A stretch of 64,000 nt of DNA, from positions 24,497,001 to 24,561,000 of the forward strand of contig JAZBQD010000027.1 of NCBI GenBank assembly GCA_036583965.1, written 5' to 3'. This document shows, piece after piece, positions 10,005 through 62,572 of the stretch. The position numbers and the translations under genes were made by a program. Each line of letters begins with the position of its first letter. Position 1 is the first letter of the stretch. The notes beneath the pieces were generated by a model, which ran no database searches, was not told the DNA's origin, and saw only the letters and a list, made by a program, of their open reading frames with translations. This stretch comes from Prunella strophiata (lineage: Eukaryota > Chordata > Aves > Passeriformes > Prunellidae).

Positions 10005-10093
10005 CCATGTCTCAGGCCGTGCAGACCAACGGGACGCAGCCTCTGAGCAAGACCTGGGAGCTCAGTCTGTACGAGCTGCAGAGAACACCCCAG
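10005..10093 (+). CDS. RNF2: RNF2 first coding exon (residues 1-29)
   Basis: The acceptor is a C/T tract ending CCAG at 10004. The ATG at 10007 is the only start consistent with the conserved N terminus [20 protein letters not shown]. The donor GTAACC follows CAG at 10093, phase 0. The two bases before ATG are the end of the 5' UTR. Confidence 0.93.
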
Positions 10094-13000
10094 GTAACCA
10101 CAGAGCTGTGGGACTGCTGGGCTTGGGAGGGACCTCTGCACATCCCCCAGCCCAGCCCCCTGCCCAGGCAGGGCCACCCAGAGCAGGTGACACAGGGACA
10201 CATCCAGGGGGGGCAGGGATGTCTCCACTCCCGGGCAGCTGTTCAGGGCTCTGCACCCTCCAAGGAAAGAATTTCTTCCTCGTGTTGAGGTGGAAGTTGT
10301 TGTCTTTTAGTTTGTGGCCATTGCTCCTCATCCTGGTTCCACTGAACAGAGTCTGGGACCATCCTCTGATACCCCTTGGAGATACTTATAGGATCCCCTC
10401 TCAGTCCTCTCTCCTCCAGACTGACCAGGCCCAAGTCCCACAGTCTCTCCTCATCAGAGAGATGCTCCAGACCCCTCATCAGCTTCATGGCCTCCCCTGG
10501 ACCCTCTCCAGCAGCTCCTTGTGTTCATTGTGTGTTGCAGGGCTGGCAGCACTGGGGTTTTGTGTGCTGGATGTGTTTGTGTGTCGTGTCTCTTTGCTGT
10601 GCTCCCTTGGGTAAAACACGCTGTCTCCATGAGGAAGGGACTCAATCCCAGGAAAGAACCTTTCCCTTCTTTGCTGCCAGGAAGCCATCACAGATGGCCT
10701 GGAGATTGTGGTGTCCCCCCGGAGCCTGCACAGCGAGCTCATGTGTCCCATCTGCCTGGACATGCTCAAGAACACCATGACCACCAAGGAGTGTCTGCAT
10801 CGCTTCTGCGCCGACTGCATCATCACTGCCCTCCGGAGCGGGTACGTGAGCACTGCCAGGGACACTGCCAGGGAACAGGGAGGGGACACTGCCAGGGAAC
10901 AAGCAGGGAACATGGCCAGGGCACAGGGCGGGGGACAGGGCGGGGGACACTGCCAGGGAATCAAGGGGGGCACTGCCAGGGAGGAGTCACTGCCAGGATG
11001 CGGTGGGGACGACACTGCCAAGGCATGTGGAGGGGACACTGCCAGGGCATGGGAATGGGACAGTGCCAAGGCACGGGGAGGGAGCACTGCCAAGGATGGG
11101 ACACTGCTGGGAAGAGGGATGGCACGCTGCCAGAGGACAAGAAGGGGATGCTGCCAGGGGTAGGGATGAACACTGTGGAGGAAAGAAGGCTTGGACAGTC
11201 CATCACACTTCAGGTGGAAGTCCCCTGTGCCCTGGGAGTTTCTGAATGTGTGTGAAAGCACACCTTTCAAATCCTGTTTTTCCATGTTCAGCCATCTCTG
11301 GAAGACAGATCAAATTGCTTCCTCATTAAAAAATAATTTCATAATTCTGTTTCTTGCAAGGAGTTGAAGTCCTTTTTTGTATTCTTTTCTTCCCTTAGAT
11401 CTAGTAATAGTAAACCAAAAATACACTTAACTGACAAAAAATGGGTTTAATTTCCCTTATTCTTCCTTTTCCTAATAACACATTTCAAATTATGTGGCCT
11501 TCAGCCATTTCAGATTATGTGTCCTGTGAGTGTTAGAAATCATGGAATCATAGAATCCCAGAATGGTTTGTCTTGGAAGGAACCTTAAAGCCCATCCAGT
11601 CCTACCCCTGCCATGGGCAGGGACACCTTCCACTAGCCCAGGTTGCTCCAAGCCCCATCCAGCCTGGCCCTGGACACTTGCAGGGACCCAGGGGCAGCCA
11701 CAGCTTCTCTGGACACCCTGTGCCAGGGCCTGCCCACCCTCACAGGGAAGAATTTCCTCCTAAGACTATGCCTCAGTATAATTTTCACTAGACATCCATT
11801 TTTTTCTGGATAAAAATCCATCCAGAAAATGAAGAGAAGAAGGGAACGTGGGACTTTTGACCTCTTCAGTCTCAATAGCTTGCTCAAACATACTTAAAAT
11901 AAAAGAGCAGCAGGGAGAGATACGTTTGGGAACTTTGTTTGAATATCTGCAACTGCCTGATCTGTCAAGAGGCAGAAGCCCCTTTCCAGATTTACTATAA
12001 ATACTGAGTCTTAGCAAGCACCTTGACCACGAGTGGAAGCAGCAGGGCAGAGTTTTGTTACTGCTGGAGAGTTAAGTGTTGTTTGCTTCCTTCTTGCCCG
12101 TGCCCAGGAACAAAGAATGTCCCACGTGTCGCAAAAAGCTCGTTTCCAAAAGATCCCTGCGGCCAGACCCCAATTTCGACGCTCTCATCAGTAAGATTTA
12201 CCCCAGCCGGGATGAGTACGAGGCTCATCAGGAGAGGGTGCTGGCCAGGATCAGCAAGCACAACAACCAGCAAGCCCTGAGTCACAGCATCGAGGAGGGA
12301 TTAAAGATTCAGGCTATGAACAGGTACATAATCGCCTCGTTTGCCTTTAGGCTAAAAATACAATGCCTGTCCTCGTGCCCTGTGGAGCTTGAGAATCTGC
12401 TCCTCTCTGATACCTGCCAAAACAATTTTTAACCTTTGGCAAAAGGATTTTTAACCTTTTGTCTACTATCAGAAATCTCTGTATCACTCCCTGTGATGTC
12501 TGTGGCAGCCTGATAGAAATATCAGTTTAGCTTTACCCAATTATGGCTGTCATGTCTTAGATAAGAAACTATAACACCAAAATGCTACCCTTACATGCCA
12601 ATAAATGCACAGAATACCAGGACTTGGGACTTAATTGTGACTTAATTCACAGGCTGGAATATGTGGTGTTTACACTGTGGTGAAATTCCAGATGTACATT
12701 TAAACCTAAGAGAGCCAGCTGGGAGAGAGGCATGATAAACCCAAACTTTGCATGATAAAGCATGGCGTGATTTAATAATTCTAATCATTATCATCAAATC
12801 TAATCTAATTTCATCCATGCTTGGATGAAAATGATGGTCTGCAATTGCCTGAAAAACAGCTGTGTGAAGTTAAAATAGTCTTAAAAAGGTGTTTGAGGGA
12901 CACTGAAAAAATGAATAGTTCTCTCTATGAGTGTCTTTTCCACAAAATAATTAATATTAGTAATTTTTTTAACTTTAAATCTCTCTGAAATGTTCAGTGC

Positions 13001-15307
13001 TTGCATGTGCACATACCTGACTTGGGGAGGAGGTGTGTTGTGACCTGGCTGGATTCTGGAGGGGTCAGGTGTATCTCTGCCTGTTTGTGGCCAGGTTGCA
13101 GCGGGGCAAGAAGCAGCAGATTGAGAATGGCAGCGGGGCCGAGGACAACGGCGACAGCTCCCACTGCAGCAACGCCTCCACACACAGCAACCAGGAAGCT
13201 GGGCCCAGCAACAAGAGGACCAAAACCTCAGATGACTCTGGGCTGGAGCTGGACACCAACAACACCACTGTGGCCATAGATCCCGTGATGGACGGGGCCA
13301 GTGAGATCGAGCTGGTGTTCAGGCCTCACCCCACCCTCATGGAGAACGATGACAGTGCACAGACAAGGTCAGTGGCCCTTGCCATCTCCAGGTATTCTGC
13401 TGCTGTCTCCTGGTGATTCAGTTTTCCATCACTTCTTGGGGCTTCTGAACATTGATTTACTTCAGTCATACCACATCCTGTTTAACTGTGTCACAGGATG
13501 GTGAAGTGTCAGGGATCCTTAAAGCCCATCCAGTGCCACCCCTGCCATGGGCAGGGACACCTTCCACCAGCCCAGCTTGCTCCAAGCCCCATCCAGCCTG
13601 GCCTTGGGACACTTCCAGAGATCCAGGGGCAGCCACAGATTCTCTGGGCAACCTGTGCCAAGGCCACATGCAAATAAGCACTCTTTCCTTCTTTCTATTC
13701 CAAGTCAGGTAGATGGTACTGCTCAACTATTATAAAAAATACAGTCATAAGCTGTTTTAAGCCTTTGATCACAAATAAAGATATTTTTAAGGTTTTCTAG
13801 CATTGCAGTTCAGTAGTGGGATGATGGTGTTACATCAGCTTCTTTCTACTTGCTCTAAGATTCTTTGGGAATAAACAAACCTTGTATAAGTGTCAGCAGT
13901 TTCCAGAGCAGCTTTGTGTCAGTAGGATTTGCAGGCTGGCAGCTTTTCCTGACTTTTTTTTGTTCATAATCCAGTCCAAGCACAGATTGCAAGTTTTGAC
14001 TCACAGCAGAGAGTAGTTTTATGGTATTTCCTCAGGTCTTTTCTTGGCTTTCTCTGCTGATGAGACATCTCTCTGTGATATGTGTAAGCTTCAGCTGGGA
14101 ACTGTCTCTAAAGGCCTTTTCACAGCTGACCTTTAATATCTGGGGCGTTGCAGATGGCTTTTCCCACAGCTGCTGCTTCAGTCATTACTTGATCATCTGT
14201 GGAAATCCTTGGCTGCTGTCACAGGTACATCAAGACCTCAGGCAATGCCACGGTTCGATCACCTGTCCAAGTACCTGGCAGTGAGACTGGCCTTGGAGGA
14301 GCTGCGCAGCAAAGGGGAGTCCAACCAGATGAACCTGGACACGGCCAGTGAGAAGCAGTACACCATCTACATCGCCACCGCTGCCGGCCAGTTCACCGTA
14401 AGCACTGCCACCAGGGCAGCCACTGCCCTGCATGCACCCCTGCCCAAAACACACCAGCCTGGCCTTGTGGGATTCACCTGCCAGGCTGGGCCAGGCCAGT
14501 CTGGCCAGCTCTGGACCTTAGCCCTGGTCAATCTCACATGAGACAAAAGTAAGGGACAAAAGGCGCTCTTTTCCTCTCGGGAACAAAGTCCTGCTTTATT
14601 TCCTTGGTAGGAGCCACCAGATAATCCACAGGGCTTCCCAGGTGAAAAAGAGAGATGAGCTCATCTGTTCAGGGGGTTTTAAGGTCAGGGGACCACAGCC
14701 AATGGGATACAAGGAGAGGGGTGAACCCAGGATTAACCACTGCCCACCAGGGCCTGGGGCTGGGAAAGGGGAGGAATGGGACACACCATGTGATACAACA
14801 GGATACAGATTACATAACAGTATAAATGACCCAAACACCCAGTGCAAAAGCAATTATCAACTACTTAGTGCAATACATCATGGGGCTCAGGGGAAAATGC
14901 ATGGCTCCAGCTGATTTAGCAGCAGATCATTTGCTTTTTGGCAAAAACTTGGTTGGTAGAAAAGGAGGCATAGAAATTACTTGGGGAAAATGCAGTGATG
15001 GCACCAACCATGACCTAGCTTATGCCATTCTTTTCCAGTTAAAATTGGAGAGGGGAAAAACATTTCCTCCCTTGAGAATCCTTGTGGGTTTTAGCTTGTA
15101 ACTTGTGCCACATTATTGGTGACTCCTTCAACACATTTAAGTAGCCTGTTTTACAGCACGACACCAGATGACCTCATTTGTTCCCATTTTGCTGTTCTCT
15201 TCTAGGTGCTAAATGGATCCTTTTCCCTGGAACTGGTCAGTGAGAAGTACTGGAAAGTGAACAAACCCATGGAACTGTACTATGCCCCCACCAAGGAGCA
15301 CAAATAA
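10007..15307 (+). CDS. RNF2: RING1B Polycomb E3 ubiquitin ligase (six coding exons)
   Basis: RNF2/RING1B is the catalytic E3 of Polycomb repressive complex 1. With a PCGF partner it monoubiquitinates histone H2A at K119 in the nucleus. Coding exons are 10007-10093, 10681-10841, 12108-12323, 13095-13367, 14225-14397 and 15206-15307. All have GT/AG borders; phases agree except inside 14225-14397. The start [11 protein letters not shown] and the end APTKEHK match the vertebrate protein. The RING finger runs from C51 (CPIC) through HRFC to CPTC near residue 90, split over exons 3 and 4. A Ser/Asn/Lys-rich linker with KRTK follows, then the C-terminal RAWUL domain. Discounting one extra base at 14256, the spliced frame is 1011 nt, 336 aa, the usual family length. 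As read, that base shifts the frame after V256 and gives a stop at 14349-14351 (287 aa). I judge this more likely an assembly error or rare variant than a dead gene. The gene is tail-to-tail with TRMT1L. Confidence 0.93.
10258..10518 (-). mobile_element. CR1 LINE fragment, antisense
   Basis: Antisense CR1 lying further into the element than the other copies. It has GAAAGAATTTCTTCCTCGTG, TTTGTGGCCATTGCTCCTCATCCTG, the GATCCCCTCTCAG block and CATCAGCTTCATGGCCTCCC. It sits in RNF2 intron 2 between the two first coding exons. Confidence 0.8.
10681..10841 (+). CDS. RNF2: RNF2 exon: N-terminal half of RING finger (residues 30-83)
   Basis: Begins [20 protein letters not shown] and runs into the RING: C51-P-I-C54, then CLHRFC and CADC. 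The donor GTACGT follows GG (phase 2) and completes a Gly codon with the next exon. A minisatellite starts within about 10 bp of the donor. Confidence 0.95.
10849..11165. repeat. Minisatellite (CACTGCCAGGG-type units) at the RING-exon donor
   Basis: About 315 bp of imperfect tandem units built on GGGACACTGCCAGGGAACA and shorter CACTGCCAGGG or CATGGCCAGGGCA variants, with G runs (GGCGGGGGACAGGGCGGGGG). Unit length varies between about 11 and 30 bp. It begins only a few bases inside RNF2 intron 3. Open frames on both strands through it are low-complexity artefacts. Confidence 0.88.
11540..11765 (-). mobile_element. CR1 LINE 3' fragment, antisense
   Basis: Starts with the inverted CR1 terminal repeat (CATGGAATCATAGAATCCCAG), then GGTTTGTCTTGGAAGGAACC, CCTGCCATGGGCAGGGACACC and the CCACCCTCACAGGGAAGAA block. 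It is in RNF2 intron 3. Confidence 0.9.
12108..12323 (+). CDS. RNF2: RNF2 exon: C-terminal half of RING finger and helix (residues 83-155)
   Basis: Continues [20 protein letters not shown], giving the last zinc-ligand pair CPTC, then [23 protein letters not shown] and [17 protein letters not shown]. The basic KKLVSKR segment belongs to the nucleosome-contact surface known for this family. Acceptor at 12106-12107; donor GTACAT, phase 2. Confidence 0.95.
13095..13367 (+). CDS. RNF2: RNF2 exon: disordered linker (residues 155-246)
   Basis: Encodes [20 protein letters not shown], a Ser/Asn-rich stretch, [15 protein letters not shown] and the conserved [20 protein letters not shown], ending QTR. 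The segment after GLELD (TNNTTVA) is less conserved. Acceptor at 13093-13094; donor GTCAGT, phase 2. Confidence 0.95.
13510..13668 (-). mobile_element. CR1 LINE fragment, antisense
   Basis: Partial antisense CR1 with CTTAAAGCCCATCCAGTGCC, CCTGCCATGGGCAGGGACACC and GGCAGCCACAGATTCTCTGG. It lacks the terminal 8-mer repeats. Confidence 0.82.
14225..14397 (+). CDS. RNF2: RNF2 exon opening the RAWUL domain, with an apparent 1-base insertion
   Basis: After the acceptor (CACAG to 14224) the frame set by the upstream exon reads [10 protein letters not shown]. An extra C at 14256 then intervenes, and the conserved [20 protein letters not shown] reads on in the next frame to GQFT at the donor (GTAAGC). 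The exon is 173 nt, whereas 172 nt would join both neighbours in frame. Read literally, the upstream frame meets TGA at 14349-14351 after 31 altered codons and loses most of the RAWUL domain, which binds CBX and RYBP-type partners. Confidence 0.9.
14538..14819 (-). mobile_element. Solo LTR-like retroviral relic, antisense
   Basis: On the minus strand the segment starts TGTTATGTAATCTGTATCC and ends TTTTGTCTCA, so it has TG...CA ends. In order it carries an inverted CCAAT (plus-strand CCAAT at 14699-14703), a TTAAAA TATA-like box (14677-14682), about 80 bp of possible R region, AATAAA (14595-14600) and a short U5-like end. That is LTR architecture. No coding remnant was recognised next to it and no clear target-site duplication was found, so the exact ends are uncertain. 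Confidence 0.5.
15206..15307 (+). CDS. RNF2: RNF2 terminal coding exon (residues 304-336)
   Basis: Acceptor TTCTCTTCTAG; the exon reads [20 protein letters not shown] and then [13 protein letters not shown], with stop TAA at 15305-15307. It completes the RAWUL domain. Phase 0 entry is correct only if the upstream exon is 172 nt rather than 173 nt. Confidence 0.95.
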
Positions 15308-35924: not shown

Positions 35925-35999
35925 GATTTGAAGATGTCTAAAAAGAAGCTGAAGAAACTGTCTGGAAAGGAAGTCTCTTTGGATGGCCAGGATGACAGA
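35925..35999 (+). CDS. SWT1: SWT1 first coding exon (residues 1-22)
   Basis: Nine bases of 5' UTR then ATG at 35934, reading [20 protein letters not shown] and DR. The MSKK start matches the family. Acceptor TTTTTTCGTAG; donor GTAGGG, phase 0. Confidence 0.88.
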
Positions 36000-38900
36000 G
36001 TAGGGGCAGAAATATTATTTCTTCTATATATTAATTCAATCTCCTACATTCAAGAGAACATTAATTGTTTAGCAGCCTTGTGGTAGAAGAATGAATCCAA
36101 TTTAAAGACAGGGTCATAAAGAACAGCAGGAGGGTTGAGTTGGACGGATAAAGTGTTTTTCTTCAGAGGCTGTGAGTAGTATGGGTATCAGAAAATAAGA
36201 CTTTTTCATTTTAGTGTATCTTTCTGTTTGAGGAAAGTTGGGTTTATTACTGATACTGAAACCAGTGCTGTTTTCTGTATCTTGGATCATATATCCTAAT
36301 TTTCTGATTAACCACAAGTTGTACTTCACAGCATTTTGGTGAGTGACTCTCAAATATTTCCTTCTAGCCACTGAGACATAAATTAATGACCAAAATTCTC
36401 AGCACATTCTAGTACATACTTGTGTCTAGTGAGTCAGCTTTCACTGAATCACTTGTAAAATGCAGGTGCTACAGGAGTTGTCACCTTTTGGTCATACTTG
36501 TGTGTAGATTCCTATTGTTTTTATTGTTTGTGTCCACTTCTGACAAATTATTTTCTCTCAGAAGTGCAATACATGGTTGATAAATTAGTAATTTATTAAA
36601 TCCACACTTAAATTTGCTAGATTTTTCTCCTGTTGGATTTTGCAAGGAATATGTTTAAAGTAAGAGAGCTTTTACCTATATTCTCAAAACTTTTTTGCAA
36701 GTGTTAATAAATGAGCATGATTATAAACTGAATTATTCATGTTAGAAGCTTTCTGATCATAGAGAAAATGTTGTTCAAAGTCAAATGTTTGCAACTATTA
36801 TTTCTTCCCCTGAATTTTTTGCTATTATAAAATTTGACTTTTAAAATTCAATTGACTTATCCTAAGGTGCTTTATTGTTTTGGGTTTTTTTACTTCTGTA
36901 ATACAAAGGATAGACACGTGGCTTGAAACCTCATACTGTAGCTTATTGCCATTGCTAATGCCTCACCAGTTTGAAGAATACAGCTTTAACAGCAAAAAGA
37001 TAAGGAAATCTCTAACAGGAGCCAAGTGTGATCCCAGCATGGGTGGGATCTTGGGTGTCTTATAACCCAAACTGATAGTGCTGGGAGGAGAGGAACGGTA
37101 AGAAAAATTGTTTATGATTATTAAATTAAGTCAAAACTTTTGAGAAAAGGAGGAGGTAGATTGAAAAGAAATATTAAAAATGTCATGAAAACTCATGGTT
37201 GTCAGGGAATAGGCCTTGAAAAGAGAAATGAGCAGCTGGAAATGGGTTTGTTATCACCAGAAGTTGTCCCAGCAGCATTGTGAGCTCCACCTACCCCAAG
37301 GAGGCTCCTTCACTGCTTTCCAGCTGCTGGGGGGAGCCTTTGGAATTGTCTGTCATTCTCTTTGTTCTTTGCATTGCTGGTATTGGTCCTGCAGCTCCAG
37401 AACCAGCCACAGGCAGAAGTTCTCAGAACTGCCCTAATTTACCAGAAACCCTCTGGTTTCTGCAAGCCTTTGATTTTTGCAATAAGTGCTCTCTAGTGTG
37501 GAAGTAAACCAGCTAAGGGCTCTCTAGGTAGGAAAAATCACTGCAGCAGTGACCTAATGGCCTCACTGAGTCAGCACACCCCAGTTAGTGAAGGAGTGAA
37601 TTATTTGTGAAAGGATGAACTGTCTGGAGCTTCCTTATCCAAAATAATCCACGTGTTACCATTCTCTGTTGTAACTTCCTACACCCTGCTGTGGTTTTGG
37701 GAAAAATGAGTTGTATAACCCAGAGGTGTATAAAAACTGCATGTGGACACATGGATTTACCTGAGTGCCTGTGAATTGATCATGGTAGGAGTGTTACTGT
37801 CTCAGGTCTGTAGTTGTCACTGCTGTAGTGGACCCTGTTGAATCACTTTGTAAGCATTAAAGTGCTCCATGATTAAATCATGAAGTGCTCCTAAACCCTT
37901 GGCACCCTTATCTTTTCATGCACATCCCTGGCACCCTTTGACCCTAGTGTTTCTCTAAGCAGCCAAACCTCCCAGGTTTGACATTGTCTTATGAAGGTTT
38001 TTTTTTTTTCAACTGCAGTTTCCTCTGTAAGTCCCTAAATATTTTTTTCTTTCAGAACTCTGAAGACACAAGATCTTACAAGCACACTGCAAAAGAAGAA
38101 ACAGAACTGCAGAGGTAAATTCTCAATCTGTCATTAAATAGAACTACTCAAAAATATAACAGTCATAGACCATTTAATACTGAAGACTTTTTCAACCTGT
38201 TCATCAAATAAAATATGGTGTTTTGACCAGTCTTTCTTTGGATATTTTAAAACTAGTGTACAGTAAATATAATTACTGAGTATTTTCTCTGCTCTTATAA
38301 GAAAGTTTCCCAATAATTCTTCACGTAGTTCACGATTTCTGTAACATGTTAATATATTCCTCTCCATTGTTCCTTTTCCAAGTTCCCCAGTCAGTGCAGG
38401 ATAAACAGTTTGAAAGCTCTGTGTGTTTTGGCACTGTGTGACCAAGCTGACCTTTTAGGTAACACACCTCCTTTATCACTGAACTGCTGTTAAAACTTAT
38501 CTGTGTGATAAGGAGCAGCTTAACTGTGTAGGGTGTCTCAAACCAACAGTGAATGCAGAAAAAGCTTTTTCTCCATGTTCTTAAAGCTAAAATGGCTGTA
38601 CAGTGGAGAAAGGTAAACCCAAAAAATGCCGTATCAAACTGTTTTGAAGGACAACTGTTGCTTCAAGTTCATATTTAGGAATATGGCGCTCATAAGTGCT
38701 TAGCTCTGTCTCAGTCAAGTGCAGGTGCCTTTTTTGTTGCTCTTTTCCATTAACTGAGCTGAATTACATTACTTTCTTGATAATGTTTCTGTAGTTCCAA
38801 ACCGGAGAAAGATGGGCATGAGAAGAAGCGACACCGAAGTTCTCGTGCTTTTCACGATGCAGACGGAAGATCCCAGGAAAAATCTCCAAAGAGAAGCAAA

Positions 38901-41900
38901 ACCCCGGATGGTTCTTCAGGTCAAACTGAAAAGAAGAAAATAGTGATCCAGTTTAAAGCCAAAGAAATCAAACATGGCAAAACCACCCGCACTCCTGATG
39001 TGGTGACTGCCAGCAAGGAAAGGAGTCACTTTGATGGGAGAGAAGGAAAAAGGCTCTGGCACAGCTTTGAGCTTCAGAGGGACAAGGCACTGAAGAAAAA
39101 GAGAGAGAAAGCTGAACTCTGTAAACTCAAACTAAAAGCAGAAGAAGCTATGATAGAAAAGTTCAAGTCCTCTGTGTACGAGGTACCACATAAAAAGGCA
39201 GAGGGCTCAAAAAAGCGGAGTGAAGATGTCAGAATTCCCAAAAAGCCACCTGACAGCTCTGCAGGGACTGGGCATGGTGATAGACCTGCCAGGAGGGAGC
39301 CAAGTGCATTATCCAGCTTCTGGGAAGAAGAGGAGGAAGAAGAAGAAGAGGAAGATAAGGACTTTGCTGAGAAAAAGAGGTACACGAGTAAACACAGATC
39401 ATCACACTCCTCATCTGAAACTCCACCACCATGGGACTCTCGGAAGCGCAGAAAACACGGCGCTGGTTCTCCCAAAGCTCCTGAGCACTCAGGAACTAAA
39501 GAAGGAGACTTGGAAGCCACAGCATTGTGTTTTAAGCAGGTAATGACAACCCTGTATTATGTAGAAGTTTCAGGATGGTTTCTTAATGGCAGATTTATAT
39601 GAGCAGACTGTCTTCTTACAGAATCCTGGCGGGTTTCATAGCTAACTAGGTGGATTTTTCTGATCCTAATGTAAACCTTGTTTCCATTGTTCCTCAGCTA
39701 AATGTTAAACAGACCAGAAGAGTAAAGGTCTTGGATGTTGGGACTGTGTCTGCACAGATGCTTCCATGGCTTTGCTTTGCTGCTGGGGGTGTGGAATACT
39801 TCAGTTTAGGTATAAATCAGCTGATATTTTGGTTTTGAGCTGATATGGTTATTTCATTTCTTGAATGAATAAACTGAAGCAATGAAAACTTGCTTCCAGA
39901 CAGAGTTAATGCAGTGATGCCAGGAGAGCTTGGGGTGGATGTGGGACTAAATTGGTATGTGGGCTGCAGAGCTTCCCTTTTATCTGTGACAGGTTTGTTT
40001 CTAAGCTCAGGATTGTGGTGCAGAGCCAAACACAAACTGGATCTGGAGCATGGGGTTTTTTTTGCTGTTGTTCTGGTGAAAATGCCCAGCAACTTTGGAG
40101 ATTCCAGTTTGTGTTATGGTAGTGTGAGCATTTTGTGTGTATGCTAAGAGTTATTACATGCAAAGCTGGGGATTCATTGAGGTTGGAAGGCACCTCTGGA
40201 GACCATCCAGTCCAGCCCCCTTGCTCAGGCAGGGTCAGCCAGAGCTCATTGCCCAGGATAAAGGATAGAGACTCCATAACCTCTCTGGGCAGCCTGGTCA
40301 AGCACCTTCAATGTAAAACAAGGTGTGGGGTTAATGTTCAGATGGAATTTGCTGTGTAATCCACTGTTATTTATTTAAAAGAGAGCCATGCATCTAAGCC
40401 CTATTAAAATGATACTGTAGGTGCTAATAACTGTAGTTTATGTTCCCTGTTCACGTGGGAGTACCCAGTGATCTCTAAAAAGCCCTCTAAGACACTGTGT
40501 TGTTCTTCTGTTCCTGCTTGTTTCTAGGATGTTGAGGACCCCTGCACATCTGACTCCTACCAGGGAGGTGAGGTCAGAAAGCCTGTCCCAAAGGTGAGTG
40601 AGGGTCTTGTTTAACACTGTGGGGCTGTATTCCAAAACTCCTGATGTGGGGATCCCTTTTACCCCAGTATTCCTTGACATTTTGTGATATTGGTAGGGTG
40701 TGTATTTGTGGTGTTTTTAATTCTCCCTACAGAGCTCTGAAGACTTTCCACGCCTTCAAGACAGTCAGAACACAGAAACAGACCAAGAGGTTGGTAATGC
40801 TTTCATTTAACACTCCTGTGTTGTCTTAAAGACCAAGGGCACCAAGGTTGTGTAACTGGACAATTCCATGACCTTTCCTAGTATTTGGCATTGTTGACTG
40901 ATGATCTACACTCAAATGTGGAGCATTTATTTAAAAAACTAAGCAAACTTGCTGAAGTGCTGCTAATCAGGAACTTTCTGAGACAAAGTCTGTCTTTCTG
41001 TTACCATGTGCAGCAAGAGGGCCTTCATAGTTACTCACATGTTCCAGCTATCTCATTTTTCATCCTCTAAATTTTTAGTTGGAAGAAAGACATATTTTTA
41101 AAGAAATGCCTGTTAGGAAACTTGCAGTTTGTAGCAAAAAACATGCAGCAAAGTTTTTGAATACAATGTAGAAAGGTCATGAATCTTTCTAGGACATATT
41201 TTGGATGTCTTAGTGGAGCATATGCAGAAGTTCTGCGTGGATTTACATTTCCTGTACTGACTTAAATTTTTTCAGACAGTCATTTTGAGGCAATTTTAAC
41301 AGCTTTAATGCAAAAATATCTTTTTGGGGAATAATTATGAAGTGATTTCTTCCAGTGGATTACACACATGCTCATTTTCCCACTGTAGATGCAGATAGTT
41401 GAAGACTTGCACGTTGCTCGTGTGGAGAAGAGGATGGCCCTGTCTGTAGTACAGACCTGTGGAGAACTTACAAGCATGGAGATAGATCTTCCAGAACAGG
41501 ATTTAAATACTTCTGCTGGTATGTCATGGCTTGGATCTGCTTTGCTCTCTAGTTGCAACAAGCAATTACAGTTATTGATGGTCTGAGAAGGGAGCACACA
41601 ACTGATTATTTCTGCTGTTTTCTCTTTTTTCTCTTCTTTTCCCCTAGGGGCTTTTAGTTCTGGTCTGAACATCCTAGTGGTGATTGACACAAATATAATG
41701 ATTAGTCACCTTGAGTTTGTGAGATCCCTGAAATCTGAGGATATACCAGGTATGTAAATATGTTTTGATGAGTAAGACATTGTAAGTTAAGATGCTGTAA
41801 GAGCTTCAGGATACCTGAAGGAAACCAAGCCCTGGGCTCCTTAAAAAGGCAGCAGGTTTCATGGAGAAGTAGAAGACACACACTTGAGAGCCTGGTTCTG

Positions 41901-44900
41901 TGAACCCAAACAAGTTGCATGTTAGGGAAACTTCAGCTGTGGAAGCAGAACCTACTGTGCTTACAGCCCATGTACCTGCAGAGAATCATGGCAGATATTC
42001 CCAGGAATATGCTTGAATTTCTTAGCAGTAAATAAGTCTTAGCCTTTCTGAGAGCATAATTTAAGCATTCAACCCCTTACTAGTGATAACTCTCTTTTCT
42101 AGTCTCCTTTTAGCATTTCTTTTTCTAGAAATGTAAAACATTCTAAAAAATATTGAGCAGTCAGTCAGTGTTTTGTTTCTGTCTTGGTAAAGGTGGCAGA
42201 ACTGAGCAATTTTTCAGGAATTCAGAGTGCAGACCCTGGCTTTAATATTTGCCTCTAATATTCTGGGGAGCTGTTGGTTATTTAATGTCTGCAGGATTAG
42301 GATCATGCATGTCAGTTCTTGGTAGGCACATCTGGAATCTGTCAGAATGCCTAGGGTGCTTTGATGCTTTATCTAATGAATACCCTTATTCCAGCCACCT
42401 GGAAAATACCTTTCCTTAGGGCCTGAGTGATTTTCAGGAAGTGTGTCAGACTGTATTTCTTCTCCCACGTTAGGAATGCTGCTGTCTTATGTACACTGAG
42501 ATGCCTTTTTAGAATACTGCAACTCCCAGTGTCTGGTCCTGCACCAGACCCACTGTGTTGAGAAGGCTGCTGATTCCCAACCTATTTATTGTAAAGCAGA
42601 TGGTTATTAATGCATTTTTTCAAAATTCTGTTCTCATAATGTGAATGAGAAAGAAAACAGTTGAAATATTTGTCATGGGGAGACCAACAGAACAGTCGTT
42701 AAACTTCTGATTTACCCCGGTATTTCATATAAAAGCCTTTAAGTTCAGCCCATAGTTACCTACAAATAAAACCTATGGAACTTTCTGTTCCTGGTTTAGG
42801 AGTGCTGGTTGGCAATGAGCACAAGCCCTTGCTGCTTTTTTTGTTGCTTGTTCTGGCACAAGTGGACTGCTTTGGTCACTCAGGTGTGTGCAGCATGGTA
42901 TTGCAGCTGCTGTTTCACCTTGCTGCAACATCTTACAGCAAGTGTGTGCAAGATAATTGGTGCAAATATGTGTTATTAATGTTGCCAAAGTATTCTGCTG
43001 ATTAAAATTGTGTTTCCCTTTTGTTTGCCTGGTACTGTCACTTTTCTATGTAATTGGTGTAGTGCCAGATTGAGGTTAGATTAGAAAGAGGGAAGTTTGC
43101 CTTTTTCAGCTCTTTTTCAAATGCTGAATTCTCTCGAGCAAGGACTATGAAAACTACTGGCAGAAAAGGTGTGAACTTGCACTAGATCTGAAGCTTGAAT
43201 TGAAAGCTTTCTGTAGTAGTTTGTGTCACTCCTGCAAATACCTTTGTTAATTGGTGGTGGTTTTTTTCCTTCCAGGAGTTGATAGACTTGCATTAATAAT
43301 TCCCTGGGTCGTCCTACAAGAGCTGGACAACTTGAAGAAGGGGAAAATGTTGCAGCATGTTCGGGACAAAGCTATCCCTGCAGTGCAGTTCATCTACAAG
43401 TGTCTCAAGAGCCAGGATTCCAGACTGTGGGGGCAATCCATGCAGCTGGCTTCTCAAAAAATGTGTAATACATGTGCAATCCATTTGTGCTGGGTACTTC
43501 ATCCTTGCACTTCACCTAGTGGCAACCTTAGAATTCTGAGATTAATGGAGACTTCTTCACTCTGCTGTTTGCTAATTAACATGAGCTAATTTCTTACAGC
43601 AGCCTTCAGAGTGTATCCAAGGCTGTGGCATGCAAATGTCTCCACTATCTATTGTTTTACCAGTTTCTCACTTTCACCTTACACTTGTGTCCTTGTGTGG
43701 GAAGTGTTAAATGTACAGAGAGCACCATGAGTGCTCTGAGGTGTTTGTGAGGCTGAGCTGTGCCCACATCCCTCAGCTGTGTCTGCCTTGCCTTTGCAGA
43801 TGGGCTGAGTGACGAGAACAACGACGACCGTGTCCTGCAGTGCTGCCTGCAGTACCAGCAGCTCTTCCCACAAGCTCTTGTTGTCCTCTGCACGTGAGTT
43901 CCTAGGCTGCCTTTAGCTCTCCTGCCACACTGCTTTCAAATCAGGGCTTAAAGAAAAAGCACTTTCTGAAGTAAGCTCTTGGAAGGGCAATCACCCTCTT
44001 AAAAGCTGGAGAAGAAGGATAGAATAAACCACTACAATTGGAGATGGAATCACCTTCATGAGCTTGAGGCCTGAAATAGAATTCAGATTACTGTATATTA
44101 GATTTTAAAACTTGTTAAAGCATAGATTTTAGTCTGGTTTCTCATAAAAATATTTCTGAAGTTACAAGTAGGAAAAAATATGTGAATTAAGGATTGAAAT
44201 CCAGTTAGAGACTTTATCCCTGTTCCCAGCCAGGTGAGCAGAAGCAAAGCAGGGGTTAATCTTAGAAAGAGGGAAGCTGGGGATGGATTTGCTGCTGTTC
44301 CTGTTTGTGAGGATAACAGCTGACCTCTGAGTATTGATTGTGAATTTGATACAAGCAGGTGAAGACAGCTTGAAGGACTAGTACTCCTTGGCTCTGCTTG
44401 CTCTGATCTTGGCTAGAACCAGTTCCTGCACTGTTCAATGAGTTGGGTCAAAACTCTGGGCACTATTTGGATTGTTCAAGTTGACACAGGTGGCTGCTGA
44501 AAATGGCATTTAGGTCACAGTATTCATAGGGTAGTGATGGTGATTTTAGGGAACACTGATCAAAAAACAGGAGGTGGCTTCAGAACTGGTTTTCATCCAA
44601 AAATCCCTTTAGCCTCTACCAATAAAAGCAATGGGAATTTTTGAGAAAGTACTGGGACGCAACTTTTTCCTGGATTTTTATAGTTCTGCTGGAGCAGAAC
44701 CTCAGAGTGGCATCTGGGATAAAGACTTGGCCAGCAGAATAGTTAAACAGGGCCTCAACAAAGACAATTAACTGTAGCCCTCAAGTAAGATAGGACTGTC
44801 TTAGAATTATTGCCTGGTTTGCTGACTGAGATCATAGCAACTAAACACCACTGCTGTAATCACTGCTGTAGTAATTATAGCTTATTGTTTTCTTAAACCT

Positions 44901-47900
44901 AGACCCTGAAACACTTCTCAGTATGTTTCTCATTTTTACTTTATTTTCTGGTTTAATTTTTTTGACTGCATCTAATTGCTTGAGAAAGAGAACTTTGTCT
45001 ATATAATGAAGGTTCACAAAATAAGTTTTCCAAATACAGTGTGCTGCTTTTATTCCTTTGTTGACAGCAGTTAATTATGTTCTAGGGATGATAAAAATCT
45101 GTGTAATAAAGCCATTGTGAGTGAGGTCAAGGCATTCTGCAAAGCTGATCTGGTCACTGCTCTGCAGAGTGTGAGTGCAAACAGGCCCCAGCACTCTGAG
45201 GAGCTGCAGCCAAAGCAGGGTGAGTCTGTGGAATATGCTGGTTTGTGAGTTTGTAAAAATCAGTGGGGTAGAGGAACAGCAGTTGCTGCTATACCTTCAG
45301 TTTTCCTATGCTTCAAATCCTTAGGAATGTTTTTTGTTTGGTTTTTTCAAAGGTTTTCTGAAAGTTCCAGATGTTAATGAAACAATCTGTCTCAGAGTTC
45401 TAGGAAATGCAAATATGACTGTATTTTTATTTTATAGAAAAAACCCACTGCATTCATTTCCTGTGTTTAGAGTAATTTAAAAGGTGTCCTGAACTTTTTG
45501 GGACTGAAGGAGGTTTTTTCATTTTTCCAAAGATACAGATACAGCTTACAGAGATGAGAAGTGATCCTCTTGTGCTTGCTGATAGCCCTGCTGGCTGTAT
45601 ATGATCTAAGTTATTTAAGGAAAAATGAAATGTGGAGTAAGATCACTAATGAGCAATACTCTGGGGAAATTAACCTTCTTGGTTAGTAGCTCTTAATTAA
45701 AAATACATACAGTACAAGTGGGTATAACTAGAAATACTTAATTAGGTGAAGCACATCTGCTTTATAAACCAAAGTGTAGTCTGTATTTATGGGGACAAGT
45801 TCTTCATGTGCCATCAACATGAATTAGATATAAACCCAGTTTCAATAAATGCCTTTTGTGTCATTGGTTTGACAGATACAGAATTTGGGAAGACAAGAGG
45901 TGATGCTGGTTTTACTGCACAATTCCCCAATGTGCTTCCAGACCTTGAAAAGAACTTAGGAGAAGCTTTGTCTTATATTTTGGAGACTGAAATGAAACTT
46001 GCATTTGGAAACCTGTGGATGGAGGTGGTTTCTTACATCATCTTGCTTGATATTTTGATTATTGAAAGGTTTGAATGTCCTTGGTATTTTATTGCCATTA
46101 ATACCTGTGCCAAGCCAAACCCAAGTAATCCAGGTCCCTGGTATCATTGACAGGGAACAGCTCAGTGTTCACTTCTAATATTTCATTTTATAGCAAGATT
46201 ATCCTGTTTGACCACTAGTATGCAACATGTGCAGTATTTTAATAGAATTTTAATGACACAGTAACAGGGCTGCTGGTTTCTCAGTGTGAAGTTTCAGAAT
46301 TCTTTTTATTAGTGGCATTAAAATTCTATTTCAGCTTTTCTACTCAAGTAAAACCCTGCACTGTAAACACACCCTGCAAGAAATCATTCCACCATGTTCT
46401 GTATAATGTCAGGGCATTTTTTGCAGGCATTTCTTCCACACCAGAACAGATGTGGATAAAACTGTTCCCAGCTCAATTGATTGCAGTGCAGATACAGAAT
46501 GACAAGGGTACTAATGAGACCTCTAAACACACTTGCAGAAATATGATTTACAGAAGATAAGTACCCATATGCAAGGCACTTTCAAATCATCCATTCTTTA
46601 CTTCAGATTCCATTTCATAGCTGGTGGGGGGTTGTTAAAAATTTCAATTTATTGCAGATAAGCCTCTGTGGCTTTAAAAATCCCCCAAAATCATGGGGTG
46701 ACTGTTGTTTCCCAAGCTGCTCTGCTTAGCTGCTAAGCTTTCAATCACTTCTCTATTCACATAGTTAATTTCTTTTAAACATATCTTCAAACATTGGTTT
46801 CACTTGATAGTAGTAGTAGAATTCTCAATTTTTTTTGCAATACACGTATTTTACTTCATGTGTAAATAGTCACAGTGTTTATTTTTACTTTGTAACAGTA
46901 ACTGGAAAATCAAAGGCATATTTACTGTTGTTCTTTTTGTTCTTGTTACTGTTGGCTTTTGTGCACAAGTAACTCATTAGATCAGTTTTGACATAAATCA
47001 AAAGTATTAAGAGTTTTTGAGGAATGGGGAACCACAAATCATGAGACTGATTGATTGTGCATTGCTTCTGAATGAGCATCACTGTTTAACCCATGGTGCT
47101 GCTGAATCAAATCTTTATTAATAGGTAAACTTGTTTAAATCTGCACATGGTCTTATTTCTGAGGAATCACTGAATTTCTCCTTCAGCAGTCACAAATCAT
47201 CACATTCTTGAAGAACAGAGCAATTGTGGAATGTATAGGAATATGTCTAAATGAAAACCAGCATTTGAATTTATAACATACTCTCTTCCAGATCCTCTAT
47301 CTGAAGCCACCATGGACCTTAGCAAACCTGCTGAAATGTTACAAAAAACACTGGATGGCTGTTTTTGGTTATGTGGTGCCAAGGAGTTTACTTTCAACCA
47401 TTGAATGTCTTTCTAAACTCCTTTATGCAGGTAATAGTCCCTGAGAAAGTTAATTGTAAACTTGTAAAAAGTCTCCGTGGTCTGGTTTGAGTTATGGAAC
47501 TGTGTGTATTAATGGTCACCAAAGTCTGAATTATTTTTAAAAATCCTTTTCCCTCCTTTGCCCCCATGTTATGTGTGACCAAATGATCTGCATCTGCCAA
47601 AAAAATTATGGAGGAGCAAAGGATATTTAATGTGGTATGTGAGGGCAGGGAGGTTTGTTTTAAAAAGTAGCCAACCAAAATAAAACTCCCACAAACCTTC
47701 CATTTGTTTAAAGATGTCTTTGAGCATTTGATTTTGACAGACAGACCTGGTGAACTCCCCCAGAGGGTGCTGGGCACTGCCCAGGCTCCCCAGGGAATGG
47801 GCACAGCCCCAAGGCTGCCAGAGCTCCAGGAGGGTTTGGACAACACTCCCAGGGATGCACAGGGTGGGATTGTTGGGGTGTCTGTGCAGGGCCAGGGGTT

Positions 47901-50900
47901 GGACTGGCTGATCCTGAGGGTCCCTTCCCACTCAGGATATCCTGGGATTTATTTGCTCTGCCTCTTTGGGATATTCTGCTGTTCTGCAGAATTATTTTAG
48001 CTATGACAGTTGATCCTTGTGCAAGATCCCAGGATAAATTTGGAAGCCTTGGTTAAGGAGTGAGCAATCTCATGCATGTTTCTCTGAGATTGTTGTACCT
48101 GATGCTTCTGAACCATTTTCCTAGGCTTTTCAAGTGCTTCTGTTAATCTAGGTATTTGAGTATTAAATTTGCCTGCCAAGACTGTTAAATTCTAACTTCT
48201 TTTTTTTCTCCCTCTTACATTAATGTCTCAACATCAGATAAACCATTTGACTCCTCAACAGTGTGTATCCTACTCCAGGAATCCAAAAAATTGCTCCATG
48301 CTTTCAGCTGCAGGTCAGACTACAACGGTGTCCTGCCCCAGGCTTATGCTGAAGTGGCAAAACTGTGTGAGAGCCTCGGGGGGGTAAGGGCAGTTTTGGT
48401 GTTTGTCCACCTCACCCCATCCTCAAGTTGTTCCATGCTCCAAACCTGGCTTAGATTTTTAATTATTCCCATCATTTCCACTGATTACTCCAGGAAATGT
48501 TGCTGGGGTGTTTTCAAAATGAAGAGACCCTGACTTTAACTTTTATTTTCATGCAGTGAATATCTGCTGATACATTTTTCCCTAATATAAATGTGTTTTA
48601 CTATTGGAAGGGTGACTAAAAACCATTATTTTGTCTTAGTTTTCTATTGCATTTGTTATCTGATGGGCCTTAGAGGTTAAACTTGCTGTTTCTGACATGG
48701 GTCCCATACTGCTGCTCTTAAGTGTGTTATTTCAGCTTTCATTGTCTTCGTAGCTGAAGAAGGGACTCCCTTGTATCATGTGGTTTGTGGTGGTCACTGG
48801 GGGTTGTCCTGACCCCTTTTGTGTTCTCAGAAGTTGGTCTTCACTCCCAGCTCAGCTCTTGAGTTGCTGTGGAGGAAATTCCAACTATCTTGGTTTATGG
48901 TTACTGTCAGTTCTGTATGTAATGGCATAGAAACTGGAGTCATGAGCGTGGATGAAATATTTGGATTTATGGGAAAGAAGATAGGTCAGAACAGCTGTAA
49001 AGAGTTCTTGGTGTCTTTGGAAAAGGAGGAAGGGAAAGAAAGGCCAGGAGTTACCTGTGCTGGGACCTCTCTGCAGTGCAGTCAGCCCTGAACCTGATGT
49101 TCTGCTGTCACAAGAATCAGGTTCTGTCTGAAAACTTGTCAGGAAGGAAATTCCGCCCTGTCAGGGTGGGGAGGCCCTGGCACAGGGTGCCCAGAGAAGC
49201 TGTGGCTGCCCCTGGATCCCTGGAAGAGTCCAAGGCCAGGTGGGACAGGGCTTGGAGCACCCTGGGACAGTGGAAGGTGTCCCTGCCTGTGCCAGGGGTG
49301 GCACTGGATGGGCTTTAAGGTCCCTTCCAGCCCAAACTATCAAGAGAGACTTTGAATGCAGAGACTGTAACCAAGGTGACTCGAAGAGTTCAGCCTTGAT
49401 TTCTTGAGCATTGCTTTAAAAAATCTGTAGAAGTGTGTAGATTCTGGTTTTCTGAAGTTAGGAACCAAATACATTGATTATCTGTTTGCTGAACTGTTTT
49501 ATAAGGTGAGGGCAGACAGTGAGCAGGATTTATCAGAAGACATCATGGTTCTTTCAGAAAATGCTGCGTGTGAAAAAATGGAAGCCACGATGCCCAATCT
49601 GCAAAACACTGAGGAAAAAGAGCTACAGCCCAGCTTTCATGTGGCTCAGGAAAACAGGCACCAGGAAATCTGGTCAGTCCTGGAAGGTGTTTGGAGCACC
49701 ATGAACTTGTTCAGGTACAGCTTGCTAAAGGGGCTCAGAACTAACACATTACCTTAGATAACTTTCAAACAAGCACACTTTAGAAACTGTGCTTTTTTTA
49801 CCCATATTTAATCTAAATTGACCCAAAAATAAATCACACAACCTGTCACACAAAAGTTGGGAGCATGCATATTGTTATGTCAGAGCTTCTTTTATTAACT
49901 GCTTTTCTGTCTCTTCTTTATTTCTTTTGAATTTCAGTATTGAGCTGTTCCAGAAGCTGGACCCCAGTGCAGTGGCCATGGCTGCCAAGGCCTCGTTTGA
50001 AGAGGCTTTTTTGGGCCTGCAGAAGCTGTTGGCAGCAGTGAAGGACATCCGTGAGGGCATTGGCAGGTGAGCACTGAGCTGGGCACAGAATGTGTGACAG
50101 CCACCTGAGGTCACAAAAGTCTGAAATATTTCAGCACCAAACCACTCTTCATTCTAGTGTGCTTGGTAATATGATTTGCAGTAAAAATCCTGCTGTCAAG
50201 GCTGCCTTGAACCATTGGTAGCAAAAGATCATGGAAGTGTTTCAGTCATGGAGATCTCTTGCAGGGAATTGCCTTCTGTGTCTGGGATTTGTTTTCCAAT
50301 CTTTGACCAGCAAGTTGCCTCTGTTCAGGTGTAACTGGAGCTATTAATAATTAATTATTATGATTAATATATCAGTTTGCATGGCAGGAACTTTGAATAA
50401 TTCAGGGCATTTGTGTTTCAAATGTGAGGCCCACTCACATGGGGGCAAAGCTCCAGTAGAGTGAAGGATGTAAAGTTTTGGGGCTTTGCTGTTCCCAGTT
50501 CTTCATTGCAGCCATAACAACAACAGTCAGCTGCATTCTCTCTTTAGGCAGGATAGTATTCCCTCTATCTTCATAGAATCACAGAATCCCAGAGTGGTTT
50601 GAGTTGGGAGGGACCTTAAAGTCTATCCAGTGCCACCCCTGCCATGGGCAGGGACACCTCCCACTAGCCCAGATTTGCTCCAAGCCCTGTCCAGCCTGAC
50701 CTTGGACACTTCCAGGGATCCAGGGGCAGCCAGAGCTTCTCTGGGCACCCTGTGCCAGGGCCTGCCCACCCCCACAGGGAGCAATTGCTTCCCAATATCT
50801 CATCTCACCCTGCCCTCTGGCAGTGGGAGTCCCATCCCTCCACTGTTTTTTTTACAGCACAAAAAATTGGAAGTTTCAGGAAGAATAAGGAATCTCCTGT

Positions 50901-53900
50901 GTTGTCTTGACTTAGTTCTTTTTTCATGGCAGTGAAATGTAGATCCATTCAAAGAATTACAGTCTCTCTTTCAAATATAATTGATCAAAATATTATAAAA
51001 TTAGAAGCAGAAAAATATGGGTAGAAATGAGAGCTTGAGCAGGTGAGTGCTGATGGATGCAATTTATTGCTGGTGGGGTTTTTCCCTCTAAGGAAATTGT
51101 TCCAATAAAGTAGGTTACTGCTAAACTTTGCTCTCTTCATTCTGATGCTAAAATTTTTGCAACAGATCCTGTGGTATCAGTTTATAGATGTGGTGGATGA
51201 GGTTAAATGGGAGTATGGAATATTCAGAATTGGTATTTTTGTGTTGCAGAGGTGTTTCATTGAAAACTGTTGGTTTTCTTTGTGGCAGAGCTCTGTAAAA
51301 ATTGAAACTCGTGAAATACACAGGCTGGTTGTTGGAATGGAGTAGTTTTCCTGGACACTTTGGAAATGCCTGCTCTGATGTGCAGGTTTGCAGTAGGTGG
51401 CATTGTGGAGCAAGAAATGGGGAGACTTTGCACCAAGCATTTGCTGCATTTGCCTTGAGTGGAGGGATCTAAGGGAGTTTGAGAGTTCTGAAGAGCTTTT
51501 CCAAAGAGCCAGGAGCCAGGTTATTGTCTCATTGCAGTTTTATGAATATTACAAAGTATTAAAGCAAAAATTCAGAAGTTTTCATAGAATTAGAATAGTT
51601 GGGGTTGGAAGGGACCTTAAAGCTCATCTTGTTCTACCCCCTGCCATGGGTAGACACCTCACTTTGATTTTGCTCTAAAACTGACCTTGCAGAGTATTTA
51701 TTTTTCTTGATTTTTGAAAAAATGCCTCTCAGTGACTTATTCTAATGGCATGATTGCAGAAAAGGAGGCACTGGAGAAACAATAGTGAGAAAGTTCTGTC
51801 TTGAATATTTGGAGGTAACACAGCTTTTAGTGGTAAAATACAACTGATTCTGTGGTAGCTTCTGATCCCTGCTGTCCAGAACAGAGGAGAGAAAATATCT
51901 TGTGAAAGTTTGGGAGCTTTACCAGTAAATTATGTTGAAAGTTCAACTGCATTAAAAGTTTAGATTTTTAGATTATTAGAAACAACTAGAAAAGATGCTT
52001 TTACCCTTAATCATAAAAAAAAATACTACAGCAGTGGCAGTACCCCAGCTATTCAGGCTTGATGGCCAGAACATGTTAATGACAAATACAGATGCAGAAA
52101 AGGAAAAAAAAAAAATGCTGTTTCATTGAAGATGTGTCAGTAACAGCTTTTGGCACATTACCCTGTTTTAGTAATTTCTGTAACACCATGCAGGGTTTTT
52201 TATTTTGTCTTGATTTCTTCCTCTAACAGCACTGGTAGCAGAATGGTGTTTGTATTGCACAATTCTGCATGCCAGCAATGACAGCCTTCAGCTCTGAATT
52301 TAAGAATAATCAGTACAGTTAGCATGTTCTAACTATATACCTTTACTGTTGGTAACGAGCAAAGGGTATGAAACCTCTGAAATTTAAGCATCCAGTAAAA
52401 TTGTGAAACCATTACATGATTTTAAATAATTTTGGATGGAGGATTTGTGAGTGTTCTCACTGGTGGTTTATAATTGTATTTGGGTTGGGTATTATTTTGA
52501 AATAATTAATTGGGGTACCTTATTTAAGGTCTCTTAAATTAACTCTTTAAAATAAAATAGGGGTTTAGATTAGCTGATGTTTGCCCTCAGCTGAATAGAA
52601 CTTGTGATTCCAAGCTTCTATATGCAGCCCTAGGGGATTGGACATTGTCTTCATGTTTCCTGCCAGGTTTCTTTTAGATAAGAAATCCTTGTTCATAGGA
52701 AAGAAAGAAAATTCAGTCTTGGGTGAATTGATGGAATTATTTCAAGTTGGATTTTTTCTTTTCATCTCTTGGCTAAAAAAGAATGTTTTTGTTCATGTGC
52801 CAAATTGAAAATCACTCACAACTTACAGCATATACACTTAGATACAGGCCTCCTAAATATTTATGCTAATATGCTGTCACCTGTAAAATATTTGTTTGTT
52901 ACTGACTGCATAAGGAGCCTGAGTTCTGCTTTTCTAATATTTTATCTAAATTGAATTTCTCTTGCACTTCCAATGGTTTGGAAAATGTGGTTTAGTCAAG
53001 GGCTTCATAAACATTTGCAAATTAAAAGTGTCATTTCTTAAGATTTCAGTAGTGCAGGAGAGTGTTACTATATCAGAACTGATCACTGCATTGAAATAAT
53101 TTTGAAACAATGCTGCAGTGTTAGTAGTTTTAGTGCAGAATTCCTCAGATGCAGAGAAGCTGTGTCCTCTTTATTTTTTCAGCTGGTCAGTGGAGGAATT
53201 CAGGTCTCTTCTCCTTGGTGTCTCAATAGAGAATTGTCTTCATTCCCTTAGGCTCTTGTGTCAGTTAATAATTTCTGCCATAAAGTCCCAATAAAGTCTC
53301 TAGATGAAGAGCTCTGCCTTTAATCTTCTCTGCACACAGTCTCTTTTTGGAAGTAAAATGGAGATTAGCTCCCTGTTCAAAAAGTACCAGACATTCCAAT
53401 CAGTACTTGTTTGATCTTTATGGCTTTATGCATTTAGGTGAAACCTGAAACTGAACTTACCTGCAGCCTTCTCTGCTGCCAGGTCCCAGATTGAAATGTT
53501 CTCTTGTGCCAGTTTTAATGACAGCTGTAAGAAATAAAGCTCAAGTAGAGCTGGAAGTGGGCAGTGCTGCCCAAGGGGCAGGGCAGGGGTGGTGCTGGGC
53601 AGCTGCTCACACCATGGTGCCTTTGGAGCAGTCTGAAAAGCAGAAAGGTTTCAGACATGGAGTTGTAAAAGCCATGGTGCTTTGAGCCTGGGGTGCCTGC
53701 AGGGGCTGACAGCTGAGACATTTTGATCTATTTCTTATCCATTTCTGTTTATTATTGTATCTTACACCTTGTGTTTGGCATCAGATGAGTGACAGGACAG
53801 GAATTAAAGAAACATTGAGAGTGATTTGGGAAGGACTTGAGATAAAATCATCAAGTCTGACTGTATCCTCCTGCCCCCAAGACAGCATTTAAGCTCCAAC

Positions 53901-62318: not shown

Positions 62319-62572
62319 TTAAAACTTGTAAATTTTGGTGTAGGGGCTCCACTCGTTTGACTCTGGATTGTAGACCTCAAGTGTGTTCAAGAACTCATTG
62401 CCATCGAAGCCCCCCACGGCATAAATGGTGTTGGCCACGGTGGTGATGCCGGCGTTGCTCCTGGGCGTGGTCATGCCGCCCATCATCTTCCACTCGTTCC
62501 TGGCAGGGTCGTACATCTCCACGCAGTTCACCGCGTGCGTGCCGTCAAACCCTCCGGCCACAAAGAGCTTGC
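62319..62572 (-). CDS. IVNS1ABP: IVNS1ABP terminal exon, last two kelch blades
   Basis: Reads [20 protein letters not shown], then [20 protein letters not shown] and [20 protein letters not shown], ending [10 protein letters not shown] and the stop at 62319-62321. Acceptor CTCTCGCAG, phase 1 entry. Confidence 0.96.

Follow-up and report, generated by a model that had tools for sequence, protein, structure and literature searches.

RNF2 (RING1B) is the E3 subunit of Polycomb repressive complex 1. According to the part of PMC4579347 available to us, RING1B is essential for gastrulation in the mouse, and a fixed loss of RNF2 is therefore unlikely. A surplus base in a bird coding sequence is described for the mitochondrial gene ND3, in many birds and with no passerine among them in the available text of PMC7814300. 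Indels of technical origin have been described as well: early FALCON, when merging haplotypes, put indels where the haplotypes differed and was tested on a hummingbird (PMC5632298, in extract), and short indels in CLR consensus sequence, leading to frameshifts, are given as the commonest errors before polishing in the accessible portion of PMC8081667. In the present study we analysed a window of 64,000 nucleotides from the Prunella strophiata assembly and found a +1 break in RNF2, and other genes of this genome proved to be broken in a similar way. The surplus base is, in our judgement, not a real biological feature and has an ordinary cause. The features of the window to which the text refers are as follows.

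10007..10093, + strand: RNF2 coding exon 1 (MSQAVQ...TPQ); tblastn 100%, human RNF2 residues 1-29; donor present
10681..10841, + strand: RNF2 coding exon 2, first RING part; tblastn 100%, residues 29-83; splice sites
12108..12323, + strand: RNF2 coding exon 3, second RING part; tblastn 98.6%, residues 84-155; splice sites
13095..13367, + strand: RNF2 coding exon 4, covering the linker and the beginning of the C-terminal domain; tblastn 92.6%, residues 155-248; splice sites
14225..14397, + strand: RNF2 coding exon 5, 173 nt, one surplus base; tblastn, splice sites
14233..14234, + strand: AG, possible frame-restoring acceptor, weak context
14254..14256, + strand: TTC, site of the surplus base, T or C indistinguishable; bases tied in the frameshift scan, human peptide as reference
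14349..14351, + strand: TGA in the shifted frame, 46 nt upstream of the end of exon 5
15206..15307, + strand: RNF2 final coding exon (VLNGSF...EHK, TAA), in frame; tblastn residues 303-336
35934..59462, + strand: SWT1, aligned part, in frame; tblastn with passerine SWT1
62319..63687, - strand: Kelch-repeat exons belonging to the neighbouring gene; both ORF pieces tested contain Pfam Kelch_1

The inner borders of the six RNF2 exons are all GT/AG, exon 5 lying between ...ctgtcacag and gtaagc, and outside exon 5 the tblastn blocks of human RNF2 are 92.6-100% identical, that of exon 4 extending slightly into the intron, which leaves no question of chance matches. The six coding exons sum to 1012 nt, against 1011 for 337 codons (336 aa and the stop). 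Within exon 5 the frame slips by +1 between V256 (GTT) and D257 (GAT), the human protein being followed in one frame up to 14255 and in the next frame (DHLSKY...) from 14257. The identity of this second block is 72% because it continues into the intron; in its exon part a single residue differs from human (S to A, IATAAGQFT). Read as printed, RNF2 is a protein of 287 aa, with 256 normal and 31 altered residues, in which Pfam finds the C3HC4 RING (zf-C3HC4_2, 60 bits) and does not find RAWUL, whereas the RNF2 of Lagopus has that domain at 78 bits. Since the coding sequence of RAWUL is present in two frames, the printed gene is broken, rather than a different gene. The first-pass annotation, made from the letters of the sequence, is thus upheld by tblastn and by the exon sum in placing a frame break in the 173-nt exon, and equally in its account of 31 altered codons before the TGA at 14349-14351, of the loss of most of RAWUL from the protein as read, and of an RNF2 gene otherwise intact in its five other exons.

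In six birds that we read (Lagopus, Anas, Aix, Willisornis, Corythaeola and Athene), RNF2 is unbroken at this site as annotated, these being annotated proteins rather than DNA, so that annotation could hide a shift. The proteins of Aix galericulata (P0009) and Willisornis vidua (P0013) carry an additional peptide at the exon 5 border, probably through gene-model errors. Tandem repeats rich in GC, with lengths of 12, 24 and 48 bases, occupy positions 10851-11101, about ten bases past the donor of RNF2 exon 2.

RNF2 is thus a spliced gene of six exons with SWT1 downstream, a gene order that we take to be conserved in birds. Protein and DNA searches of the genome (1.053 Gb, 838 contigs), with limited candidate lists, found no further match to exon 5. 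Being spliced, syntenic and represented by the one match found, the gene is not a retrocopy; a decayed duplicate was rejected as well, as far as the searches reach, on the single match by protein and by DNA. For SWT1, 17 tblastn blocks cover 881 of the 884 residues of P0122, two of them containing a stop, which by our reading is read-through of intron sequence. The best identities were with Passer domesticus (92.5%) and Motacilla alba (92.4%), among 30 proteins compared of 120 listed in a database clustered at 90%; they place the bird among the oscine passerines and, by our reading, probably outside these two genera. The Kelch gene beyond it is, from synteny, presumably IVNS1ABP. Two repeats were also seen: a minisatellite at 55277-55998, within an SWT1 intron, whose GC-rich unit of 21 bases occurs about 34 times, and one stretch recurring in the translated ORFs at about 8.3-8.9, 23.9, 47.5, 49.1 and 50.6 kb of the window, which in our view looks like the 3' ends of CR1 retroposons.

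The identity of the surplus base was approached with a frameshift scan, in which each base is scored by how well the remainder matches the human peptide. T14254, T14255 and C14256 tied in the scan, so that the base may be T or C and is not certainly C14256; of the earlier claim of a single surplus C at 14256, the one surplus base stands and its position does not. Both GTT-GAT and GTC-GAT encode Val-Asp, and the printed GT[T][C]GAT can be read as the first followed by the second, which makes T/C at V256 a synonymous transition pair. The surplus base also adjoins a GATC, and a polishing error at a Hi-C ligation junction was considered; this idea was dropped because the window shows no excess of CGATC: a C precedes 3 of the 160 GATC sites, where the CpG rate predicts 5.4.

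Turning to the genome as a whole, a Pfam 7tm_1 search gave 683 initial candidates and at least 153 matches, with 147 candidates scored. Among the 30 loci numbered L003-L032, 26 qualified as full-length when tested and the other four proved to be the same places as L033-L036; 38 loci with partial matches (L033-L070) were fetched, and their six-frame ORFs were searched with a profile made from those 26 full-length domains. Three genes with both halves listed at one open-frame length, one half carrying a TGA, were left out of this census. In 16 of the 38 partial-match loci the GPCR domain passes from one frame into another, with 17 breaks (two in L067). The gaps between frames are mostly 0-40 nt, and at the maximum of 100 nt (L043) translation continues directly, so introns are not the explanation; gaps of about 1 kb in L039, L050, L063 and L068 are read as introns. 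The remaining 18 of the 38 showed no such passage into a different frame. As to direction, 16 of the 17 breaks are +1 modulo 3 and L038 is -1 (two-sided sign test, 2.7e-4). CHRM3 (L037), which has 4 nt where its PDB orthologue has two codons between cysteines, is more readily taken as a two-base loss, and when it is moved to the losses, +1 holds in 15 of 17 (P about 0.002).

By best PDB match, the broken loci include AGTR1 (L036), CHRM3 (L037), CHRM5 (L040), AGTR2 (L044), HTR1F (L052), CX3CR1 (L060), DRD1 (L061) and CCR8 (L067). Some of the GPCR breaks could be true pseudogenes; a healthy bird lacking AGTR1, AGTR2, CHRM5, HTR1F, DRD1 and CHRM3 all together is not expected. The affected share, 16 of the 147 scored candidates (11%, roughly one in nine), can be set against the frame-shift errors in less than 3% of genes that the consulted section of PMC8081667 gives for assemblies meeting target metrics, including an average base quality of Q40, a rough comparison in that weaker candidates were unscored and breaks were sought inside one domain only. 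Three further GPCR loci (L034, L058 and L064) stay in one frame but are interrupted by a stop, for L058 as judged from the ORF borders, and these may be genuine pseudogenes, products of substitution errors or the borders of genes.

The T/C pair at V256 prompted the idea that other breaks might hold such a pair, and RNF2 (TTC) was accordingly excluded from the pair count. PDB orthologues, taken to be human, anchor nine breaks. The scan covered eight +1 breaks in seven genes, CHRM3 being left out since a loss of two bases is the better reading there. At six of the eight, the tie set holds an adjacent C/T or A/G pair in which the surplus base may be the one or the other: AGTR1 (CT), AGTR2 (GAA), CHRM5 (AG), HTR1F (AAGG), DRD1 (TC) and CX3CR1 (CT). 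The first break of CCR8 gave a broad, uninformative tie and the second a single best base with no transition pair. Random insertion into intact coding sequences of 26 GPCRs, with 4000 trials for each mode, served as the null, its reference being each gene's own protein and hence more lenient than a human orthologue; it yields a transition pair at a rate of 0.24 (0.239), and a pair without an equal-base run at 0.094 when the inserted base is random and 0.000 when it copies a neighbour. Against it, six of seven without the first CCR8 break corresponds to a P of about 0.001, and seven of eight with that break to 2.8e-4. Localisation by paralogues misplaced the AGTR1 break relative to orthologues, so pair counts use orthologue peptides only, and L043, L046, L055, L059, L062, L065 and L070, placed by eye or by paralogues, were excluded. 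By eye, L043 and L070 fit a C run equally well, and the other five are readable as synonymous pairs, some in several ways. The tie sets of RNF2, AGTR2 and HTR1F also contain an equal-base run, so that a plain run-length error fits there too.

With the same kind of break present in other important genes of this genome, an assembly error is most likely, and we hold it very probable that the RNF2 break is an assembly artefact of some sort. Assembly error or a rare allele had been put forward as the likeliest explanations at the outset; this view is supported, and the genome-wide control strongly favours the former over the latter. Judged from sequence, the probable form of the error is a merging of haplotypes in which both alleles of one V256 site were written side by side. 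The bird would be heterozygous at the third position of V256, with synonymous GTC-GAT and GTT-GAT differing by a CpG transition, and a consensus step merging the two haplotypes would have printed both alleles consecutively, giving GTTCGAT. The five other RNF2 exons and SWT1, all in frame and conserved, and the transition pairs at six of the eight scanned breaks speak for this account, while the second CCR8 break without a transition pair, the loss of two in CHRM3, the -1 of L038 and the C runs of L043 and L070 speak against it. A different insertion during assembly or polishing, e.g., a surplus T at 14254-14255 that owes nothing to a polymorphism, is a possible but clearly less likely cause: it would suit the T run in the RNF2 tie set, the surplus C within a run at L043 and L070 and the many +1 breaks of this genome, but the tie sets of AGTR1, CHRM5, DRD1 and CX3CR1 have no equal-base run, which argues against run-length error as the common cause. 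Under either form of error, the RNF2 gene itself is most likely intact in the bird and the assembly is off by one base.

It may also be asked whether the base is real. The RNF2 sequence as printed does read as truncated, and a heterozygous or rare insertion in the sequenced bird would give a 287-aa RNF2 with RING and without RAWUL. Nonsense-mediated decay is often escaped when a stop lies within roughly 50 nt of the exon end; the TGA is 46 nt from that end, so that decay of the message is not certain and the product could be made. This account is nonetheless improbable, as other important genes in the assembly carry the same type of defect and the six bird proteins are continuous at the site. 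When annotated proteins were searched for the altered tail, there was no match at E<=10 (2 candidates), a weak result because the database is clustered at 90%. Were splicing to compensate through an acceptor at 14235, PQAMPRF would replace ten residues. The proposal that the AG at 14233-14234 keeps the frame proved correct, with 333 aa in which Pfam still detects a shortened RAWUL, and so did the remark on its poor context: pyrimidines make up 50% of positions -20 to -5, whereas the acceptor at 14225 reaches 69% and those of the other four RNF2 exons 69-88%. The domain also loses its start (profile positions 12-65 of 65, 54 bits against 78 for Lagopus RNF2), the stretch removed is identical in the six bird proteins, and the normal AG stands ten bases upstream, all of which make this outcome highly implausible.

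Scarcely more credible is a real base skipped by ribosomes, with +1 frameshifting at GUU_C before the rare codon CGA. Influenza PA-X shifts by +1 at UUU_CGU, putative sites of this class prefer CGN and CGA is rare in chicken, according to the sections of PMC3498833 that we drew on, and a surplus base is carried by ND3 in many birds, though in no passerine. However, the same source leads one to expect low efficiency at such sites, by our reasoning the tRNA that decodes GUU would be mismatched with the first base of UUC, and no relative is known to share the surplus base, the comparison among birds being at the protein level only; a scan of viral_contigs yielded no relative. A shift at GUU_CGA has a distant parallel in PA-X, and the facts of RNF2 do not call for it. 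That the surplus base is real and RNF2 is expressed either through +1 skipping at GUU_CGA or as a RING1B without RAWUL appears to us very improbable; a true truncation of RNF2 would be remarkable, and the evidence is against it.

For the present, claims of gene loss or frameshift drawn from this assembly, e.g., for AGTR1 or CHRM3, need read support. If the doubled transition holds up as a sign, errors from merged haplotypes might be recognised in coding sequence without reads.

Among the systems described, the locus is closest to RNF2/RING1B itself, from which the printed gene departs by losing RAWUL after V256; it shares with it the RING, the conserved sequence, the six spliced exons, the SWT1 neighbour and, once the surplus base is discounted, a length of 336 aa. 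With ND3 of birds and turtles it has in common one surplus base in a conserved bird coding sequence, but ND3, as the excerpt of PMC7814300 has it, is mitochondrial and carries the base in almost all bird orders and not in passerines, while RNF2 is nuclear and affected in one genome. The putative likeness to early FALCON, as described in PMC5632298 and judged here from the assembled sequence, lies in a surplus base where two alleles apparently stand, a bias towards insertions and broken coding frames in a bird.
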